Shown in pieces: positions 12,246-22,354 of a stretch of 22,354 bases of DNA (its first letter is position 1; every line of letters begins with the position of its first letter). The DNA comes from a virus. A program made the translations under genes and the position numbers. The stretch is from the IMG/VR virus record IMGVR_UViG_3300003410_000051, positions 1-22,354 of that record; one strand, written 5' to 3'. The notes beneath the pieces were generated by a model, which saw only the letters and a program-made list of their open reading frames with translations, made no database searches and was not told where the DNA came from.

Positions 12246-12253
12246 TATTTATC
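12246..12253 (-). promoter_or_regulatory. Late-type octamer GATAAATA upstream of gene 16
   Basis: GATAAATA lies 13 nt before the ATG at 12232 and overlaps the TAA stop of gene 4. The gap also contains ATAGTAGCATATAA, which recurs upstream of the cytidylyltransferase gene at 226-239. Confidence 0.35.
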
Positions 12254-12686
12254 TACGTCTTCCTTGATGGAAAATATCCTTTTCGCTAATGACTCTAAAG
12301 CGTATTCCTTTTTGTTTACACCATGAGTTAGCAGCTTCCCACTTGGCTTGATTCATTACCCAATGTGCTTGATTATGTTTTGATGTGCCTAGTTTTTCTT
12401 TCAGTGTTTGATTTTCTGGTTTGACTTCTATCAGTTCTACTAGTTTTTTACCATTTTTATCTGCATACGCAATAAAGAAGTCTGGTACATATATTGTTTG
12501 CTTGCCGCTTAAAGGATTACGATACGGAATCTTTATTGCTTCACTTGCCCATTTTTCTACACTAGGATGCTCGTCGCAGAACCGCATAAATGCAAACTCC
12601 CAACTTGAACGATAGGTAGGAGTTTTGTTACCCATGTACTTTTCTGGGTTTTTAAGATTAAATTTTCCTTGAGCAAATCTAGACAT
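12249..12686 (-). CDS. 4: gp4-type head completion nuclease
   Basis: This 145-residue protein matches T4 gp4 (150 residues), which completes filled heads before tail joining. It opens with the similar pattern FNLKNPEKYMGNKTPTYRSS and WEFAFMRFCDEHPSVEKWAS. The TnsA-like endonuclease residues are present in order: Glu30 in YRSSWE, Asp69 in VPDF and Glu87-x-Lys89 in IEVKP. An active nuclease that trims protruding packaged DNA ends is therefore plausible, though activity is inferred. It follows the subtilase gene by 5 nt and precedes gene 16. A C-terminal RFRVISEKDIF resembles the WHFEIWTEKTL end of the T4 protein. Confidence 0.92.
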   Translation of the reverse strand: MSRFAQGKFNLKNPEKYMGNKTPTYRSSWEFAFMRFCDEHPSVEKWASEAIKIPYRNPLSGKQTIYVPDFFIAYADKNGKKLVELIEVKPENQTLKEKLGTSKHNQAHWVMNQAKWEAANSWCKQKGIRFRVISEKDIFHQGRRR

Positions 12687-12691
12687 ATCAT

Positions 12692-15600
12692 TTAATTAAA
12701 TTTAAAACTTACAGGATAAAACTCGCTAGACCCTGTATTTGACAGCGTTCCTCCATTACTAGGATCTAACCATACTATTTTTTCAACTATAGATGATCCA
12801 GCATACCAAATCCATAATCCAGTAGGCTCGCTAGGATTGAGTGTAATAGTGCCAGAACTTAGATTAGCATATTCGCCGTCACTATCACCCGAATACTGTC
12901 TACCTATTTTTGTATCTTTAGTCACAGTAAGTTCTACAGTATCGCCTACAAAATAAGTTTTTGTTTTGATAGTATTGTTAAGAAAAATTCTATCAGGTCC
13001 TTCAGTATAAAATGTGCCAGTAGATATTGAATAGGTTTGATTAGGTGTGTCATCATAGAACGGTGCCCAATTATCTCCTGTAAAACTTGGAATAGCATTA
13101 CCTGCACTATCGGTTGCACTAGTAATATTCACAGTCATAAAATTACCTTTAAGGACTGGTCCCGCTTTAAGTGTAAAAACCCAAGTAGGAGTTGTTCGCA
13201 TTGAGTTATCAATAGTTGGTGTATCAGTTACGGTTAATGTGCCTGTGGGATTATCAAAATAATCACTGGCATTACCTTGATCGACAGTGATTTCATAATC
13301 AAAAGTAGTACCCGCAGGAATGTTATATAGTATTGCATATATGCCTAGTTTGGCTCCTGGTGGGTAATAATAGTCGGTCGTTGATCCGCTTACTAAAGAG
13401 TATACTCTTCCACTTGAACTAGTATCCCAGTACAGTTGTACTCTAGACCAATCAGGCGTTCTAGTTGTTCCGTCATCTATTACGTTAATTGTTAATGAAT
13501 CCTGGTTGGCTCCGTCGTCGACAGAAATAGTCAACGTTTGTGTAGATTCTATTGCTTCGTTTTGAAGAACAAAAAAACTTGCTGTGCCTGTATTGTTGTT
13601 TATTATAAAATATTGACGTCCTGGAATTCCGTCACCGCTGCCGTCACTCAATTCGTAGTACCAATTTCCGCTAGTTGATGTTATGTTAAATGGAACTATA
13701 GTTCCATCTGGAACATTTGTTGTAGTAAGTGTAACAACAAACGTGCCGTCTCCTTCTGTTACTGTGCTCGGACCTGATAACGTGTATGTTCTTGTAGGCA
13801 CAGGAATACCACTAGGTAATAATGTAATTTTAGCTGCATTAGGATTTAAAGTTAAATAGTTTTCCATGCTTGTGTATTGTTCGTAGTTGAATGTAGAACT
13901 AGACGTCCCAGGTACTAATAAGATTGATCTTGATTGAGTTGCATTTATGTTTTTAGTAGGGATTGTAATTTTAGTAACAGTATACATAGGCACAGCATCA
14001 CTTGGCACATTACGAACAAGTTCTCCTGTGCTATAATATAGTCTTTGTAAAGTACCGGTTTCCCAGTTTAAAGAATCATATCTGTCATCTGTATCAGGAG
14101 TGTTATCCCATTCCCAAGGATAGAATGACCAATAATCGTCGGTGTTTTCAGAATCATGAAATACATATAACTCTAAATCTTCACCTTCTGTGATAGTTGT
14201 TTTAGGATATTTTACAAAAAAGTTTATAGCTCTATCTGAATCGCCATTGCTCATTGTAAGTTTTTTTGTAGATATAAAAGGTGCTTTTAGAAGTTTATTC
14301 GGACCGCCGAATATTGTTGATGACGATGTATAATCATCTGTCTGTCCAGTACCTTTCATATGATTGTCCCAAGCAAGTTGTACAATATAATCTTTAAACT
14401 GGTAATGATTCCATTTACGCCTTGCTTCTGCAAGTTGGGCAATTACTCCAGTAACTTGCGGACATGCCATCGACGTGCCAGAAATTGCAATAGCTTTATA
14501 GTTAGAATCTAAGACATAGTTGCCTCTATAATCATTATTGTATTGATCCCATATTGTACAACCTTCAGGTATAGCTCCCATAATCCAACTTCCAGGTGCA
14601 TATAAATCTACTCCTGGACCTGCATTACTAAAACTCGATCTTATATTGTTTGTTGGAGGGTTCCAGCCACTAGTACTTCCGTTACCAAAATCCATGGCTC
14701 CTACAGTTATTACGTCTCCGTGACCTGGAGTTGTTCCTCTGTGATAATATCTAGTACCATATACACTTGAAGTCCAGTAGTTGTCGTAGTCATCGCCTCC
14801 TGGAATATCTACCTTGTGTTTGTCATTACCTGCTGCGGCAACAACTATTATTCCTGCATCAATACAGTCTTGTATATCAGCATCAACAGAAGCAAAGTGT
14901 ACAGGAAAAATATAATCTCCGTCAACATTTTGTTGTGATTCTACCATGCCGTATTGCGATTGCATGGTAGTTGCTGTCCAAGGAGTTCCTCGATAATTGC
15001 CGCCTGTGATATTTGTATACGGAGCAAAATACCCCCAGCTGTTACTCATTATTGTAGGATTGTCGTTGCTTTTATTCAAATGCCATAATCTCATTAAATT
15101 AATAGCAAGACTTGTTCCAAATGCATCTGTATCAAAAATTTTAATGGCATAGATGTTAGCAGAAGGAGCCCATCCAAATCTTGCTCCTGCGGCAGTACTT
15201 GAACAATGTGTGCCATGACCGTACTGGTCTGTATAGTGCTGAGGTCCTTGTGTATATGAGCCAGATAAACCCGCTTCTGCAGGCCAATCAACTTGTTGAA
15301 GTCTACTTACACCTGTAATGGGATCTTTCCATTCAGGATGATCTGCAAGGATACCGCTATCACAGATTACAATGTCTACATTTTTTCCAGAAGCAGTTAT
15401 ACCATCAACCCATCCGTCTGGACGCAATGTAAAACTTCGAGTACCGTGTGTACTCATCCATTTACCCCAGTCAGTTTTGTCTGCGTCGTAAAATCCCTGA
15501 ATGGATGTTCTATTTCCTGTTCGTCCAATATTATGAAGTAGTTCGCCGCCGTTTTCTATTTTAGAACCTACTCGTACATCTATAACACGACTATCTGTTT

Positions 15601-15760
15601 TTAAATCTTCAACTTGTTCTGCAGTCATTAATAGATCAAAATTACGCAAACTTTCTGGCTTTTCATTATGCACAGTAAAGCCAGCATCGTGCATTTCTTG
15701 CATGAAGTTTGCTTTGTCTATGCCTTTATGAAGAGTAACTACACAGCGTTGTTCAGACAT
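12692..15760 (-). CDS. Subtilisin-family (S8) serine protease with C-terminal beta-domain extension
   Basis: This 1022-residue protein contains a full subtilase catalytic domain: Asp134 in VICDSGI, His182 in YGHGTHCSSTAAG, oxyanion Asn312 in AAAGNDKH and Ser430 in SGTSMACPQVTG. Residues 1-70 have the look of an I9-type inhibitory propeptide (CVVTLHKGIDKANFMQEMHD). No signal peptide is seen. Beyond about residue 500 come Thr/Ser/Gly-rich beta domains. One at about 665-770 resembles a Calx-beta repeat (STVTEGDGTFVVTL, ending LTINVIDDG), and a further domain runs to the C-terminus. The gene starts 9 nt after the tail-fibre-like gene with AAGGAAC as its ribosome site, so the two are probably co-expressed late. 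I infer a virion- or tail-associated protease, perhaps acting on host surface proteins or maturing a tail part. A lysis role is the alternative. Confidence 0.95.
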   Translation of the reverse strand: MSEQRCVVTLHKGIDKANFMQEMHDAGFTVHNEKPESLRNFDLLMTAEQVEDLKTDSRVIDVRVGSKIENGGELLHNIGRTGNRTSIQGFYDADKTDWGKWMSTHGTRSFTLRPDGWVDGITASGKNVDIVICDSGILADHPEWKDPITGVSRLQQVDWPAEAGLSGSYTQGPQHYTDQYGHGTHCSSTAAGARFGWAPSANIYAIKIFDTDAFGTSLAINLMRLWHLNKSNDNPTIMSNSWGYFAPYTNITGGNYRGTPWTATTMQSQYGMVESQQNVDGDYIFPVHFASVDADIQDCIDAGIIVVAAAGNDKHKVDIPGGDDYDNYWTSSVYGTRYYHRGTTPGHGDVITVGAMDFGNGSTSGWNPPTNNIRSSFSNAGPGVDLYAPGSWIMGAIPEGCTIWDQYNNDYRGNYVLDSNYKAIAISGTSMACPQVTGVIAQLAEARRKWNHYQFKDYIVQLAWDNHMKGTGQTDDYTSSSTIFGGPNKLLKAPFISTKKLTMSNGDSDRAINFFVKYPKTTITEGEDLELYVFHDSENTDDYWSFYPWEWDNTPDTDDRYDSLNWETGTLQRLYYSTGELVRNVPSDAVPMYTVTKITIPTKNINATQSRSILLVPGTSSSTFNYEQYTSMENYLTLNPNAAKITLLPSGIPVPTRTYTLSGPSTVTEGDGTFVVTLTTTNVPDGTIVPFNITSTSGNWYYELSDGSGDGIPGRQYFIINNNTGTASFFVLQNEAIESTQTLTISVDDGANQDSLTINVIDDGTTRTPDWSRVQLYWDTSSSGRVYSLVSGSTTDYYYPPGAKLGIYAILYNIPAGTTFDYEITVDQGNASDYFDNPTGTLTVTDTPTIDNSMRTTPTWVFTLKAGPVLKGNFMTVNITSATDSAGNAIPSFTGDNWAPFYDDTPNQTYSISTGTFYTEGPDRIFLNNTIKTKTYFVGDTVELTVTKDTKIGRQYSGDSDGEYANLSSGTITLNPSEPTGLWIWYAGSSIVEKIVWLDPSNGGTLSNTGSSEFYPVSFKFN

Positions 15761-15769
15761 CTAAGTTCC

Positions 15770-17041
15770 TTAGTAAAGTGCGTTCCACGACACACCGTCA
15801 TAAAATACAGGATAAGGAGTGGATCCTCCTTTAGAAGCAGGGTCCCAGTTAGTTGCATCTGCTACAGCAAAACTTCCACTAACTGCTGTCGGAGCACTTG
15901 TTTGTGCAGTAAGTTCTAAGACATTCGTTGCAGAAATACTTCCATCTACTGCTAATACACCTGCGCTGTTTCCTGTATTAAAAACAAAATCTGCTCCACT
16001 GTCAAATGTAGGATTTCCTACACCTGTAAAAACAAAATCAGTTGCTGTAACTGTGTTAAAGATAACATCGTCTGTGGTGTTTAATGTTTGATCTCCTCCG
16101 CCGGGTAATCCTGTAACAGTGGCTCCTGAAAAATCAACTCCTGCTTGAAATTCTACATTAGAGGTAAATGTTGTACCTTGTTGAGCAATTTGTAATCCTA
16201 CTACATTTACATCTGTAAAATCTACAGTTGCAGTTGAATCAAATCGTAAACTATTTTCAATAGTAACATCACTTTGGAATATTGTATTATTTGCAATGTT
16301 AATAGTGCTCGAATCGTCTGTGCTAATAACACTGCTTGCAAAACTAAAGTTTCCAACGCTATCTGGTATATCTCCTAGAGTAATATATCCTGCATCATTT
16401 GTCAATTCGCTTACAGCAGATACTAGTCTATTATTACTATCTGTTAAGTCATCAATATCTTGAGGGATAACATTGTTATTATCAGTTAGCGTACTAATAT
16501 CAACAGGTATTGCAGGCTTGTTAGTTAAATCGTTATAGCTACCGCTAAACAGTAATGAGTTAATATCTGCCAGTTCAGACACATCTTGCGGGATGGTAGG
16601 CTTGTTTGTTAAACTAGTATACGAACCATCAAAGGTAAACACTGGTGGTACATCGATTAAATCGTTGAAAGATCCTGTGTAGGCAACAGCTGACAATGGA
16701 TTTACATAACCCTGCGTTGTAGGACTTCCATAGGTTACATCTGTTAGTAACTTGCGCCAAGCGCCACTATGTGCATAGTACAAAGCTCCTGTGCTTGCAA
16801 CGTGTATGGTCATACCAGTATAGGTATTTGGATTGTAGTTTGCTAGACTTGCTTCGTCTGCAACAGTGTTAGAATAAGAAATAAGATTATTGCCAAAATC
16901 TATATCTTCACCGCCAATGTCTGGATCACTGGCAAGAGTTGCTTCTACAGCATCTACTCTTGTGTCTAGTTCTGTAAAGTTTCCGTCTAACTCTGCGTGA
17001 GTAAGAGCTGTACCTTTTGTTGTTCTTAATGTTATTGCCAT
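15770..17041 (-). CDS. Tail-fibre-like protein
   Basis: This 423-residue protein begins with LRTTKGTALTHAELDGNFTE (residues 5-24), an N-terminal segment common to tail fibres and fibre-attachment proteins of marine phages. A region of spaced repeats follows at about 122-180: TGSFNDLIDVPP, DGSYTSLTNKPTIP and SGSYNDLTNKPAIP. A long Thr/Val/Asn/Gly-rich beta-structured stretch comes next, as in trimeric fibre shafts. The last residues (TPYPVFYDGVSWNALY) resemble the aromatic end of a fibre tip. It probably contributes to host recognition at the tail. The start follows the upstream stop closely with TAGGAA as a ribosome site. It is followed by the protease gene, suggesting a functional pair. Confidence 0.82.
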   Translation of the reverse strand: MAITLRTTKGTALTHAELDGNFTELDTRVDAVEATLASDPDIGGEDIDFGNNLISYSNTVADEASLANYNPNTYTGMTIHVASTGALYYAHSGAWRKLLTDVTYGSPTTQGYVNPLSAVAYTGSFNDLIDVPPVFTFDGSYTSLTNKPTIPQDVSELADINSLLFSGSYNDLTNKPAIPVDISTLTDNNNVIPQDIDDLTDSNNRLVSAVSELTNDAGYITLGDIPDSVGNFSFASSVISTDDSSTINIANNTIFQSDVTIENSLRFDSTATVDFTDVNVVGLQIAQQGTTFTSNVEFQAGVDFSGATVTGLPGGGDQTLNTTDDVIFNTVTATDFVFTGVGNPTFDSGADFVFNTGNSAGVLAVDGSISATNVLELTAQTSAPTAVSGSFAVADATNWDPASKGGSTPYPVFYDGVSWNALY

Positions 17042-17049
17042 TTTAGTTC

Positions 17050-17490
17050 CTACACTACATATCCTGGTTCAACAAATCCAGGTTCCATAAACGTTGTTGT
17101 ATCGCCTACCTCAACAGGTACAGGAACAGTATCACCGATATTTCTAGATTCGAGTCTATTTCCTGTTTGCACTTTGTAACCGATACTACTAATATTTTCT
17201 CTGTTATAATTTAATATTTCTGCAACCACTGCATCTAGTTGTATTTTATTAAAGTTTTTAATACCATCTAATAGTTCAAATGTTTTTATATTGTCTATCT
17301 TTGCTTGTTGTAATAATACTCCTGCAACTGATGTTGCACTTGATTTACCAAAGCCGCGCTTTTCAAAAAAACCTACAACAGCATCAATTTCGTTAGCAGG
17401 AAATGCAATTTTTTTAGTAAAATATCTATTATAAAATTCTTTTACTTTATCGGCACTGTCTTTAGAAACCGTTTTAGGTAAACTGCTCAT
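17050..17490 (-). CDS. Conserved small tail-locus protein, function unknown
   Basis: This 146-residue protein is mostly helical in its first 110 residues: VKEFYNRYFTKKIAFPANEI, then DAVVGFFEKRGFGKSSATSV and FNKIQLDAVVAEILNYNREN. It ends in a proline/valine-rich tail (DTVPVPVEV, EPGFVEPGYVV). I associate the FPANEIDAVVGFFEKRGF pattern with a conserved protein of marine T4-like phages whose role is not known. Its start overlaps the preceding stop as TAATG, so its synthesis is probably coupled to that of the tube-like protein before it. A tail or baseplate assembly role is inferred only from this linkage. Confidence 0.82.
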   Translation of the reverse strand: MSSLPKTVSKDSADKVKEFYNRYFTKKIAFPANEIDAVVGFFEKRGFGKSSATSVAGVLLQQAKIDNIKTFELLDGIKNFNKIQLDAVVAEILNYNRENISSIGYKVQTGNRLESRNIGDTVPVPVEVGDTTTFMEPGFVEPGYVV

Positions 17491-18680
17491 TATAATCCGC
17501 CTCTTATTCTTCCTGCTGCATCTACGTTAGTTAAATCTGCATTACTAACTTTACTATTTGCTTTACCTGTTTCAACAGCGCCTTGTATTCTCTGTGCATA
17601 GTTGCTTGCCGAAGCATTTACTGCTCCGCCAAACGCTTCTAATTTTTGGAAAAAGCCGCCGCTGCCTGTGTTCTTAGGAAAACTATAGCCCGAGCTATTT
17701 CCTGACTGATCTTTGGCTGCCTGCTGTATTGCACCTTTAAATACATTCAAACCTTCTTCTCTAAGTCCTTCTGCAGAAAGACCTTTTGCATTACCAAATG
17801 TATTAGCAGCATTTAAAATAGTTCCTAGACCTACATTGCCTGTAGCAATATCATTTGCAATATTGCTAATCCCAGATAATATGCCACCTTGACCTAACAA
17901 ACTTTGTGTTCCGCCGCCTTGTATAGTTAATGGGCTCGGTGTTGGATCGTAGTGTTCTTTTGCAAATCCAGGAGGGGAATCTTCTCCTGTTGCTCCGCTA
18001 TCGTAAAATACCGCTTCGTATGCAACTTGCATGGTGTTTTCTGATACTCCTGATGCATCAGTTTGATCCATAGTGTCATGTCCAAAACTTGTTACAATAG
18101 GATTAACTAATGTGTATGATACATATGAATGGCGAGCCATTTGATATATTGTAATTCTATCAAAAAATGGTGTTTTACTTCCTGCATCTAGACCGTATCT
18201 ATACTTGTGAGATGTATCGCCTTTATATGTATTTCTAGAATCGTATGCACCAGGTTTAGAACCTTGATTGCCGTCATTATAATAGTATCTATAGTAATAC
18301 TGCATTAACGTGCTAGTAATACCAAAATTATCGTCGTGGAAGTTAATATTGATCGGTTCGTATTCTAATGTAGTTTGTAGATTCTTTTTTCTGTTATACA
18401 TGTTTTTAGTAACAGTATTAACAGAATAGCTAGGCAAATCAACACCTTTGACTAGTAGATTAATTTCGTTGCGATGACGCTGAACTAAATTTGGAACTAG
18501 ATCCTGTGCTTCACTGCTCAAACTTAAAACAACATGATAAAGATATTTTGTTTTAGGAGCAAGTCTAAAAGCATCATCTACGTATAATCTAGCGGCATGT
18601 TTATAATCTCCAAAAGTTCCTTTCGGATTGGATGCCCCACTTACTAAATTATCTAAAAACCCGTTGAGTATATTTGCCAT
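17490..18680 (-). CDS. Tail-tube-like structural protein (possible gp48/gp54-type baseplate cap or initiator)
   Basis: This 396-residue protein shows a pattern in residues 45-135 that parallels gp19 encoded just upstream. In both, a V-x-x-V/L-P strand is followed by MYN or VYN, then YEPININ (here) or WDPITLN (gp19), an acidic DD/ED and an amphipathic helix. In T4 the tube-like baseplate proteins gp48 and gp54 share the tube fold, so I suggest a tube-joining role, at moderate confidence. From about residue 230 onward the protein is Gly/Ser/Asn/Ala-rich and probably helical or disordered, unlike gp19. The ATG has TATAAATA exactly 5 nt upstream and no Shine-Dalgarno. The stop is coupled to the next gene. 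Confidence 0.8.
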   Translation of the reverse strand: MANILNGFLDNLVSGASNPKGTFGDYKHAARLYVDDAFRLAPKTKYLYHVVLSLSSEAQDLVPNLVQRHRNEINLLVKGVDLPSYSVNTVTKNMYNRKKNLQTTLEYEPININFHDDNFGITSTLMQYYYRYYYNDGNQGSKPGAYDSRNTYKGDTSHKYRYGLDAGSKTPFFDRITIYQMARHSYVSYTLVNPIVTSFGHDTMDQTDASGVSENTMQVAYEAVFYDSGATGEDSPPGFAKEHYDPTPSPLTIQGGGTQSLLGQGGILSGISNIANDIATGNVGLGTILNAANTFGNAKGLSAEGLREEGLNVFKGAIQQAAKDQSGNSSGYSFPKNTGSGGFFQKLEAFGGAVNASASNYAQRIQGAVETGKANSKVSNADLTNVDAAGRIRGGL

Positions 18681-18768: not shown

Positions 18769-19395
18769 TTAAGCACCGCCACCTGTAATTAGGCTTCCTA
18801 CAGTTCTACCTACAGCAGTACCAATACCTTCACCTTGTGGTGATTGTATTGCATTATCATAGCGGATTGCTAGGGTAATTTGTACTGGATCGTTTGTAGC
18901 ATATGCTAGCGTGTTGTAGTTAGCATTTTGTACAAAGCAACCGTATAGTTCGAATGTTTCTAGTACGTTTGGTGTATTAGCACCGTTGCCGCCGTCTAAA
19001 ATTTCAATACGTGTTGTAAACTTATAATCAATGCCTGAAGCTGCACTTGACTGTTCAAAGAAGTCAAACTGCTTTTGTAGTTGTTCGCCGACTAACTTCT
19101 GTACATTATTGTTTACATCTTCACGTAAATTTAATGTAATTGGATCCCATGCATGCTTACCAGCTAGGTAAACACGTGAGTTGTAAACAGGAACTTCAAT
19201 TTCTTCAAAGTTAACTGTCGGACGAGTTACGTCAATAACTTGTTTAGTTAATTCTGTAGTAGGTGTTGAAACACCAAAGTTCTCTAATGTCACTCTAAAG
19301 CGGTATTGTAGCTTAGGCATTAACAAGCCTTGACTTGCTGCACTATTATCGCTTGCTAGTGGCACTGTAATTTTTGATAGTGTTGAAATTGCCAT
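18769..19395 (-). CDS. 19: gp19 tail tube protein
   Basis: This 208-residue protein is the subunit of the inner tail tube through which DNA passes (T4 gp19: 163 residues). Typical features are KLQYRFRVTLENFG (residues 28-41) and the strand-loop VPVYNSRVYLAGKHAWDPIT. A helix with VQKLVGEQLQKQFDFFEQS follows, then FELYGCFVQNANYNTLAYAT and PVQITLAIRYDNA. It lies directly after the sheath gene, as in T4. It has its own AGGAG ribosome site, an upstream GCTAAATA and flanking terminators on both sides. This fits a highly and separately expressed major tail protein. Confidence 0.94.
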   Translation of the reverse strand: MAISTLSKITVPLASDNSAASQGLLMPKLQYRFRVTLENFGVSTPTTELTKQVIDVTRPTVNFEEIEVPVYNSRVYLAGKHAWDPITLNLREDVNNNVQKLVGEQLQKQFDFFEQSSAASGIDYKFTTRIEILDGGNGANTPNVLETFELYGCFVQNANYNTLAYATNDPVQITLAIRYDNAIQSPQGEGIGTAVGRTVGSLITGGGA

Positions 19396-19452: not shown

Positions 19453-22354
19453 TTATAGGCCTGCGATCTCGCCTGTATTCTTCAATCTTAATGGAATGTA
19501 GATGAATTCAACTGCCTTAACAGGTTCAATAGCAATGTCTAAGTATAGTTCATTTCTATCAATTCTGTTTGGAGTGTTGTTAGATTCATCACAAACAACT
19601 AAGAAGTCATACAGTGCTCTTTGTCCTACTAATTCTAGTAATAGACTTTCAGTTGCGCCTTTGATCTCGTCTCGTGTGATCTTATCGTTTGGTTCAAAGA
19701 TGTAAGGTTTGGCAAGTTTGTTTAGTTGACTACGTAAGTAGATAACTAAACGTGCAACGTTAATTCTATCAAGCGCACTTGCATTTCTTGCACGAGTCTT
19801 CTGACCGTAGTTAACAAGTCCTGCACCATTTAAGAATGTAATCGGGTTAACGTTGTTAGCGTATAATGTATCACGCTGTCCTTCGTTAAGTGCAACACTT
19901 ACAAACTCGCCTTCGGCATTAATATAACCTGATGAAGTTGCGTTTGTAATACCACCACGTCTTGTACCTGCTGGTGCAAACCATGGATAGCTAACTTGAT
20001 CGCTAAGTGCAATAGTTCTTAGAATCATATGCGAAGCTGGAACAACAACATTGTTACCAAAGTTATCACTTGTAAAGCCTGCTGGGTAGAAGATACCTAA
20101 GTATTCGTCGAAACTTACAAGTCCGTCGTCGTTGTCTTCTACTGCTAGTCTTACGTTGTTTGCCCAATCGTTTAGTGATGTAGCATCAGGTGTTAAACGG
20201 AATGGTGAATCACCTACGATAAACGCACTTAGTCCACGATCATAGTTTAATGATACCATTTCACCGATAAGCTCTGGATATCCTGGAGTTGCCATTAGGT
20301 TAAACGGTCTTGCTTCGTCGTCTCTAATATCATCATTAGAGTTAAGCATTGCTTGTAGAGCCTGTACAACAACTTTACGTTGTGCAACTCTGCCAAATGC
20401 ACCTGAACCATCAGCGTTGTTAGCTGACTCTGTTACCCAGCGATGAGGATAATAGTTTTCCATGTTCTCGCCGCCGCTTAAGCCTGGATCATAACGATTG
20501 TTGTCTGCAACTACATCAACATAGTTACGTACAAAACGCTTAACGTTAAATCCGCTTCTACGAGTATTAAACAACAACATTCCTTTCGGATATAGTGCTG
20601 GATCTGGAGCATCAAAATCTAAGAAGTTACTAGAAAGTAAATCTACAATTGAACTTGCTTCGTCTGTAGCATTAACTCCAGCATCTGTCCAACGTGCATC
20701 AGCAAATAAAACACCATTATCTGTTGTTTGATCTGAACTGTCTAATAAATTCCACTTTAGACTGTCGCCGTTGTATCTGTAAATCAACGGATAATTATCA
20801 ATGTCAGCAGTGCTAACCCAAAGGTCACCATTTACTAATGCAGTTCCGTCTGACTGTTCAGTTGGTTCAGTCGCTGATACAATAGGTCCTTGAGGATCTG
20901 TTTGTAGTACAGGACTCGAATCATAAAACGGCGCAGCCGGTCCAAATGCAGGATCGCTACCGTCATACTGATAACCAACCCAAGTAGTACCGTTGTGAAT
21001 CATAATGTCGCACTCGTCAACAACTGAACTGTACCATAAAGCACCGTCTGCTGTTAATGAAGTAGGAGCATCTGTTGAGTTTTCTGCAACTAGTGGCTTC
21101 CAGTTAGAGATAACATAATCATAGAATGTATCTCCAGTTGGCGCATCGTAGAAATTAGCAGTAGCAGTAGTAATTCCGATAGCTGCTAATACAGCGTCTG
21201 GATCGTTAATTTTAATCTCGCCGCCTTCTACATGACTAATAGTAAGTTTATTTTGTGCGTCTACTGATGCTAAAACTTTAGTTAATGCACTGGAGTTAAT
21301 TGCTTCTGCAATAGTTTCAGCATCAGTTGAATCTCCAGCAAGTGTCATTGGAATAAAGACTAAGGTGCTGTAACTATCGCTACCTGCTGTTGTTTCAACG
21401 ATGTTAAATGCTGCAGGTCCAGCTGCAGGAACCGACGATCCGCCAACTACTGCCGACGTTACAGAAGCATATCCTGTCGAGTTTCTACGATAAATTTTAA
21501 AATCTGCAACAGGGTTAGCTGCCGATTCAACGTCTGCTTTGACGTATAAATCTCCAACTGCTAAATTTGTGCCGCCGCCTGTGCGATCCAGCCCGTATAA
21601 TGCAAGTTCTGGGCTTGTGTATACAGGTGCAGTAATTTCGTCCCAAAGCAGAGTAGCATCGTTCCATTCTCTTACACGGAATCTAGCGCCGCCGTTTGGT
21701 TCTGTGGTTTTAACCCAAAGAGAACCTGTTGGTCTAGCATCTTCATAACTCTTGTAAGTAGGTACGTCTGTATGCGGACTAACCTGTAATACAGGAGCTG
21801 CATAAGTTTTTGCTTCTAGTCCTAGTTTAGCTAAGATAGGTGTATTAACAAGATTAATGTCTGGGCCTGATGAACGAAGTTCTAATGCTCCGCCAGTTTC
21901 TCTTGCACTAATTCCTGTAATATTAGCTTGATTAATATTGTTTACTAGGCTTGATATAGTAGCGCCTGTTGTAGTAATATTATTTCCGCCAATGTTAATA
22001 GATTCGCCAGGAGTAATATTATGACCAGATGTAACTGTTCCTAGAGCAGTAGTTAAACTTGCCTTCCACTCTTCTGTACCAACTTCTACCCAAGTACCTG
22101 CAGCAACTTGTCCGTCACCTTGGTCGTTGCCTGCGTTTCCGCCTGACTTGTAATAAGTTCTAATTAAATTAGTAGTTGTAACAATCGCATAATCGCCAGT
22201 TTGACCAATAGAAGGCTTAGGATCCGATGTTGCTGATCCACCGATTAAATCACTAGCACTATCGATGATAGTTGCTGTAACAGTTGTAAAACTCTGTCCG
22301 CCTGCTGTAGAGCTAGATGCTCCGTTCCATTCTAACATACCGTATGATGTTGAA
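19453..22354 (-). CDS. 18: gp18 tail sheath protein, oversized, 5' end outside window
   Basis: At least 966 residues are visible, against 659 for all of T4 gp18. The frame stays open to the window edge (SerThrSerTyrGly precede the Met at 22338), and that Met lacks a ribosome site and the usual sheath N-terminus, so the true start lies beyond the window. Counting from that Met, about residues 536-961 are the conserved sheath C-terminal part. It includes NGVLFADARW, KRFVRNYVD, ATPGYPELIG, ASHMILRTIALSD, YPWFAPAGTRRG and, near the end, VKAVEFIYIPLRLKNTGEIAGL in part. Residues 1-535 are inserted modules with repeated GDLWV/GSLWV elements, probably displayed on the outer sheath surface. The sheath contracts to drive the tube through the host envelope. 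Confidence 0.95.
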   Translation of the reverse strand, partial: STSYGMLEWNGASSSTAGGQSFTTVTATIIDSASDLIGGSATSDPKPSIGQTGDYAIVTTTNLIRTYYKSGGNAGNDQGDGQVAAGTWVEVGTEEWKASLTTALGTVTSGHNITPGESINIGGNNITTTGATISSLVNNINQANITGISARETGGALELRSSGPDINLVNTPILAKLGLEAKTYAAPVLQVSPHTDVPTYKSYEDARPTGSLWVKTTEPNGGARFRVREWNDATLLWDEITAPVYTSPELALYGLDRTGGGTNLAVGDLYVKADVESAANPVADFKIYRRNSTGYASVTSAVVGGSSVPAAGPAAFNIVETTAGSDSYSTLVFIPMTLAGDSTDAETIAEAINSSALTKVLASVDAQNKLTISHVEGGEIKINDPDAVLAAIGITTATANFYDAPTGDTFYDYVISNWKPLVAENSTDAPTSLTADGALWYSSVVDECDIMIHNGTTWVGYQYDGSDPAFGPAAPFYDSSPVLQTDPQGPIVSATEPTEQSDGTALVNGDLWVSTADIDNYPLIYRYNGDSLKWNLLDSSDQTTDNGVLFADARWTDAGVNATDEASSIVDLLSSNFLDFDAPDPALYPKGMLLFNTRRSGFNVKRFVRNYVDVVADNNRYDPGLSGGENMENYYPHRWVTESANNADGSGAFGRVAQRKVVVQALQAMLNSNDDIRDDEARPFNLMATPGYPELIGEMVSLNYDRGLSAFIVGDSPFRLTPDATSLNDWANNVRLAVEDNDDGLVSFDEYLGIFYPAGFTSDNFGNNVVVPASHMILRTIALSDQVSYPWFAPAGTRRGGITNATSSGYINAEGEFVSVALNEGQRDTLYANNVNPITFLNGAGLVNYGQKTRARNASALDRINVARLVIYLRSQLNKLAKPYIFEPNDKITRDEIKGATESLLLELVGQRALYDFLVVCDESNNTPNRIDRNELYLDIAIEPVKAVEFIYIPLRLKNTGEIAGL

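Follow-up and report, generated by a model that had tools for sequence, protein, structure and literature searches.

The stretch of DNA analysed here, called the window, is a whole virus record of 22,354 bases from a T4-like aquatic phage. Its minus strand encodes a subtilase of 1022 amino acids (12692..15760), with the ATG at 15760 and a stop codon that ends at 12692. The genes that lead up to it on this strand encode a tail sheath protein (19453..22338; phrog_10581, 2.9e-172), a tail tube protein (18769..19395; phrog_4542, 8.8e-52), a second tube-like protein, a 146-aa protein and a fibre-like protein of 423 aa (15770..17041) that matched the tail-fibre family phrog_9729 (6.1e-7). The fibre-like gene ends 9 bp before the subtilase on the same strand, and an AGGA lies inside the gap. 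This confirms the initial annotation, which had placed the subtilase directly after a tail-fibre-like gene in the tail cluster. A head-closure protein of the T4 gp4 kind (12249..12686, minus strand) follows after 5 bp, and then come packaging and structural genes, the large terminase and a further virion structural protein. The next two proteins, of 336 and 356 aa, resemble by eye the gp32 and UvsX types, and the last one is UvsY-like. No match to Rfam was found in the window, and promoter-like sites were no commoner than in shuffled sequences. The second tube-like protein (17490-18680, minus strand, 396 aa) lies beside the main tube gene and matched phrog_13438 (4.3e-13). Adjoining the UvsY-like gene, four minus-strand genes (236-2721) resemble sugar- or methyl-transfer genes, and the segment 2128-2721 matched a DNA methyltransferase PHROG.

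The catalytic domain of the subtilase was analysed with Pfam, which returned Peptidase_S8 (PF00082) over the residues 125-468 (5.6e-34; score 118 bits, cut-off 21.8). The domain, residues 125-470 (14351..15388, minus strand), carries Asp134 in VICDSG, His182 in HGTH, Asn312 in AAGN and Ser430 in GTSMA. The Asp/His/Ser triad and the oxyanion Asn thus stand in S8 motifs, and the subtilase profile aligned with aqualysin. An alignment-guided scan of a viral collection confirmed relatives in at least 572 virus contigs, 80 of which were taken for an alignment with the window protein. The aligned proteins are 510 to 1076 aa long and all four residues are invariant (81 of 81), where the Asp was partly selected for by one of the two search patterns that contains it, and His, Asn and Ser were not. 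The claim of a complete S8 protease with these catalytic residues was therefore borne out by the translation, the Pfam match and the alignment. In a pairwise comparison with an 85%-identical relative, the gene had an overall dN/dS of 0.10. The C-terminal region reached 0.13, and the catalytic domain, at 0.05, had the lowest value of any domain tested. The overall and catalytic values exclude chance as the source of the open reading frame.

The AlphaFold model of the subtilase was confident over most of the residues 1-490 and poor beyond. In Foldseek, the best solved match was unprocessed pro-subtilisin E (1.4e-15, with a TM score of 0.72 normalised to the target length). After it came fervidolysin, further pro-forms and subtilisins in their mature form. 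The N-terminal residues 1-70 (15551..15760, minus strand), which are conserved in the relatives, form a propeptide-like domain with a predicted I9 fold. At residues 4-64 a beta-alpha-beta-beta-alpha-beta fold was predicted with a pLDDT of about 83-95, consisting of strands at 4-10, 29-31, 40-45 and 59-64 and helices at 16-25 and 47-54. Pfam gave no I9 match even at E 5 for the residues 1-97 and for two relatives, but the predicted fold and the matches to pro-forms in the PDB uphold the propeptide-like N-terminus that had been proposed. The domain is followed by a linker, residues 66-97 (15470..15565, minus strand), that ends before Trp98 and would contain the autocleavage site. Trp98 is invariant in the 81 aligned proteins and is probably the counterpart of the aromatic-Gly that subtilisins have close to their mature N-terminus. 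Since it likely marks the mature N-terminus, the expected cleavage range narrows from residues 70-120 to about 65-97. Neither a signal peptide nor a membrane segment was found, as the initial annotation had said of the former; the highest mean hydropathy of 19 residues starting within the first 40 was −0.09. Taken together, it is well supported that the window protein is an intact S8 enzyme with a propeptide. The S8 match, the invariant residues, the low dN/dS and the pro-subtilisin-like fold suggest that it is a zymogen protease.

The beta-rich C-terminal region, residues 500-1022 (12695..14263, minus strand), was modelled mostly below pLDDT 50 and had no Pfam match. In this low-confidence model, residues 656-765 resemble one beta-sandwich unit of the SxVTEG type. 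A Calx-beta-like repeat had been noted in the region, but four C-terminal fragments gave no Calx-beta match in Pfam at E 5 and the repeat is not confirmed. Among the relatives, the C-terminal modules differ and are of the cupredoxin type, of the LamG lectin type or almost absent. Pfam Copper-bind was matched by 6 of 60 phage subtilases scanned. A cupredoxin-like C-terminal motif with the candidate copper ligands His, Cys, His and Met was seen in 21 of the 80 relatives, for example in L028, L052 and L014.

A contig of 115 kb (L008/G001) was in effect the same virus, being 99.995% identical to the window over 18,660 bases. It encodes a second subtilase of 648 aa on the minus strand (L108:8928-10874; G001 63928-65874) that is 34% identical to the first. 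This gene is also directly preceded by a fibre-like gene, whose product of 445 aa matched the baseplate wedge-fibre connector family phrog_677 with its C-terminal domain. The C-terminus of the second subtilase resembles a cupredoxin domain (HPFYIKT ... YYYICQFHSAMTG). Downstream of it on the minus strand, a protein of 2503 aa with many repeated beta-type segments is encoded (L108:323-7834). Two adjacent related proteins of 323 and 324 aa on the same strand (L108:17121-19076) are unusually rich in cysteine.

A search for the fibre-subtilase pair in other phages had been proposed, and when 57 loci with a complete upstream open reading frame were compared, the pair was found to recur in many aquatic viruses. 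At 56 of them, the upstream frame on the same strand ended at most 9 bp from the subtilase or overlapped it by at most 32 bp. At the remaining locus, L012, the fibre-like gene ended about 1 bp before the true subtilase start once the start of the frame had been corrected. Genes for head closure, baseplate wedge and virion structural proteins were among those on the 3' side of the subtilases. Of 52 partners scanned, 25 matched the tail-fibre family phrog_9729, 18 the connector family phrog_677 and 11 T4 gp9/10 N, and matches to collagen-like families were also obtained. A C-terminal domain of unassigned function, phrog_9627/15343, was common to 42 of the 52. Because the partners belong to several unrelated types, their adjacency is not proof that fibre and subtilase touch each other. 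Judged from the genes, many phages seem to use a protease mounted close to the tip of the tail. By tblastn, tandem second copies of the subtilase were detected at 3 of 80 loci, and in L012 each of the two copies is preceded by a fibre gene of a different type. The first copy in L012 (L012:858-3551) and the second one in L049 (L049:8699-10345) lack one simple catalytic motif string and are possibly degenerate.

In cyanophage myoviruses that have the typical partner domain, the subtilase was nearly always the next gene. At the S-CAM1 locus (L123:4341-6596), a profile search detected a remote S8 protein 1 bp after the partner that had been missed by tblastn and is annotated as 'putative proximal tail fiber protein'. 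This member apparently carries Glu where the catalytic Asp would stand (VDIVTLESG), and an insert separates its Asp and His motifs. Since its position is maintained while Asp seems to be exchanged for Glu, some members may be only structural, and a structural role may outlive the activity in some lineages. The partner domain of most loci was also present in the siphoviruses S-CBS2, PSS2, S-CRES1 and S-CRES3, and no S8 gene was matched at E 1 across their whole genomes.

The homologues also bear on the presence of the subtilase in the virion. SSCSM1_228 of S-SCSM1, which is only about 28% identical to the window subtilase in the catalytic domain, is labelled as a virion protein in its record. 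According to the published study, 45 proteins were detected in S-SCSM1 virions by mass spectrometry (PMC9602691). We counted 48 virion-protein labels in the record, so the label tracks the detection closely, but not exactly. For the Agrobacterium phage Atu_ph07, PMC6102473 gives CDS 284-329 as the cluster of virion-protein genes. When the genes were numbered by position and checked against gp128, gp132, gp288, gp292 and gp327 named in that paper, the S8 protein was gp329, the last gene of this cluster. The initial annotation had proposed a tail-mounted protease. Its position in the tail cluster holds, and for the virion location of the window subtilase the support comes from these homologues.

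We consider that there is about an even chance that the window protein is carried by the virion, at the baseplate or the fibres, as a zymogen protease that cuts host surface proteins. The S8 endopeptidase would be made as a zymogen in the infected cell, where its I9-like prodomain would aid the folding of the catalytic domain and block the enzyme until it is cut off at about residues 65-97. It would be made together with the upstream fibre-like protein and become part of the virion close to the baseplate and the tail fibres, where its C-terminal beta-rich domains may serve for attachment or binding. When the virion meets a cell, the protease may cut host surface proteins and thereby help the fibres or the tail to gain access to the receptor or to the outer membrane. 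We favour this explanation because of the S8 match, the invariant D/H/N/S, the pro-subtilisin-like fold and the strong constraint on the catalytic domain. It is also favoured by the coupling to the fibre gene, the second fibre-subtilase pair, the variable C-terminal modules, the separate S77 protease, the virion-labelled homologue and the place of Atu_ph07 gp329 at the end of a virion-protein cluster. We infer the position at the baseplate or a fibre, the timing of the activation, the substrate and the peptidase activity, and a host surface protein is our leading guess for the target.

The subtilase could instead act during assembly, where it would cut the neighbouring fibre or some other protein of the tail, and have no extracellular role. 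The tight coupling to the fibre gene at the 57 loci, the L012 tandem with a fibre gene of its own type before each copy and the near-constant linkage in cyanophage myoviruses, even in S-CAM1, agree with such a maturation. However, the four siphoviruses have the partner domain and no S8 match, which argues that the enzyme is not always needed. In addition, the partners are of unrelated kinds and that of the window lacks the phrog_9627/15343 domain, so that no common substrate is visible, and a maturation enzyme would not need large variable C-terminal modules. Fibre processing is thus weakened as a general reason for the pair, and we regard it as unlikely for the window protein, though still worth serious attention.

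That the protease is released at or after lysis, where it would degrade debris, decoy receptors or surface proteins of competitors, appears improbable. The gene lies among late structural genes, the protein has no signal peptide and synthesis as a zymogen would keep the producing cell from harm, all of which is compatible with a release. But a soluble product is not expected to show a conserved coupling to fibre genes, and SSCSM1_228 carries its virion label. We give still less credit to a protease, injected or newly made, that takes over the host by cleaving its cytoplasmic proteins. Jumbo phages do have patchily distributed peptidases for which an action on host proteins has been proposed (PMC7824862), whereas the subtilase sits among structural genes and its subtilisin-type prodomain is usual for extracellular enzymes.

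The Glu in the remote S-CAM1 member and the two tandem copies without a simple motif string could point to a catalytically dead structural adaptor that retains the subtilisin fold only. For the window protein this is very improbable and not supported, since the four residues are invariant in it and its 80 relatives and the dN/dS of 0.05 lies in the catalytic domain. A replacement of the prohead protease, suggested by the adjoining head-closure and packaging genes, is barely conceivable and indirectly contradicted, since the 115-kb contig of this phage encodes a T4-type S77 prohead protease of its own. Such a separate S77 gene was found in 3 of 5 related contigs (L014, L040, L056) and in S-SCSM1.

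The best-known enzymes of phage tails cleave sugars and peptidoglycan. A widespread tail-borne endoprotease, if true, would be a different route through the cell surface. It is possible, as a tentative generalisation, that aquatic T4-like phages form a class with protease-armed tails, in which modules of a fibre and a zymogen subtilase, sometimes two per genome, act at adsorption; the fibre would aim and the subtilase would strip host surface protein. The conserved pairing is what makes these genes of interest. In the open-access literature searched, we found no functional study of a phage, cyanophage or tail subtilase or serine protease, nor one of a tail-associated protease. The family itself is already annotated in cyanophages and in PHROGs (phrog_9158) without an assigned function, and new in the window member are the long C-terminal region and its phage. 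Since the family is annotated in cultured cyanophages, the proposal is directly testable.

The profile of phrog_9158, the S8 family of T4-like cyanophages, matched the residues 3-721 of the window subtilase (1.2e-67). Its members from the Kyanoviridae S-H38, S-H9-1, S-WAM2, S-CREM1, S-RSM4 and P-SSM2 (gp297) share the layout of propeptide and S8 domain with all four catalytic residues, and their genes follow a fibre, baseplate or hypothetical gene and precede structural genes. However, they are only about 28-31% identical to the window subtilase, and the aligned cyanophage members are mostly 550-680 aa long and lack its C-terminal region of 500 residues. With secreted bacterial subtilisins of the subtilisin E/BPN', aqualysin and proteinase K type, the window protein shares the catalytic fold, the catalytic motifs and the prodomain fold. 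It differs from them by the missing signal peptide, the inserts in the catalytic domain, the phage-specific C-terminal region and the location in a phage tail cluster. T4 gp21, the prohead protease, is likewise a serine protease among T4-type structural genes, but belongs to another family, S77, that is separately present in the window phage. Atu_ph07 gp329, annotated as an extracellular serine proteinase precursor, has an S8 domain (1.4e-36) and a matching fold and lies two genes from the tail fibre gp327. Its sequence is very remote (26% identity to the second subtilase), and it differs by its length of 1251 aa with Ig-type repeats and by its other neighbours. The terminase of the window phage is nearest to that of Pseudomonas PA5oct-type jumbo phages (54%), and the terminases of Atu_ph07 and the window phage are 54% identical over about 412 residues.
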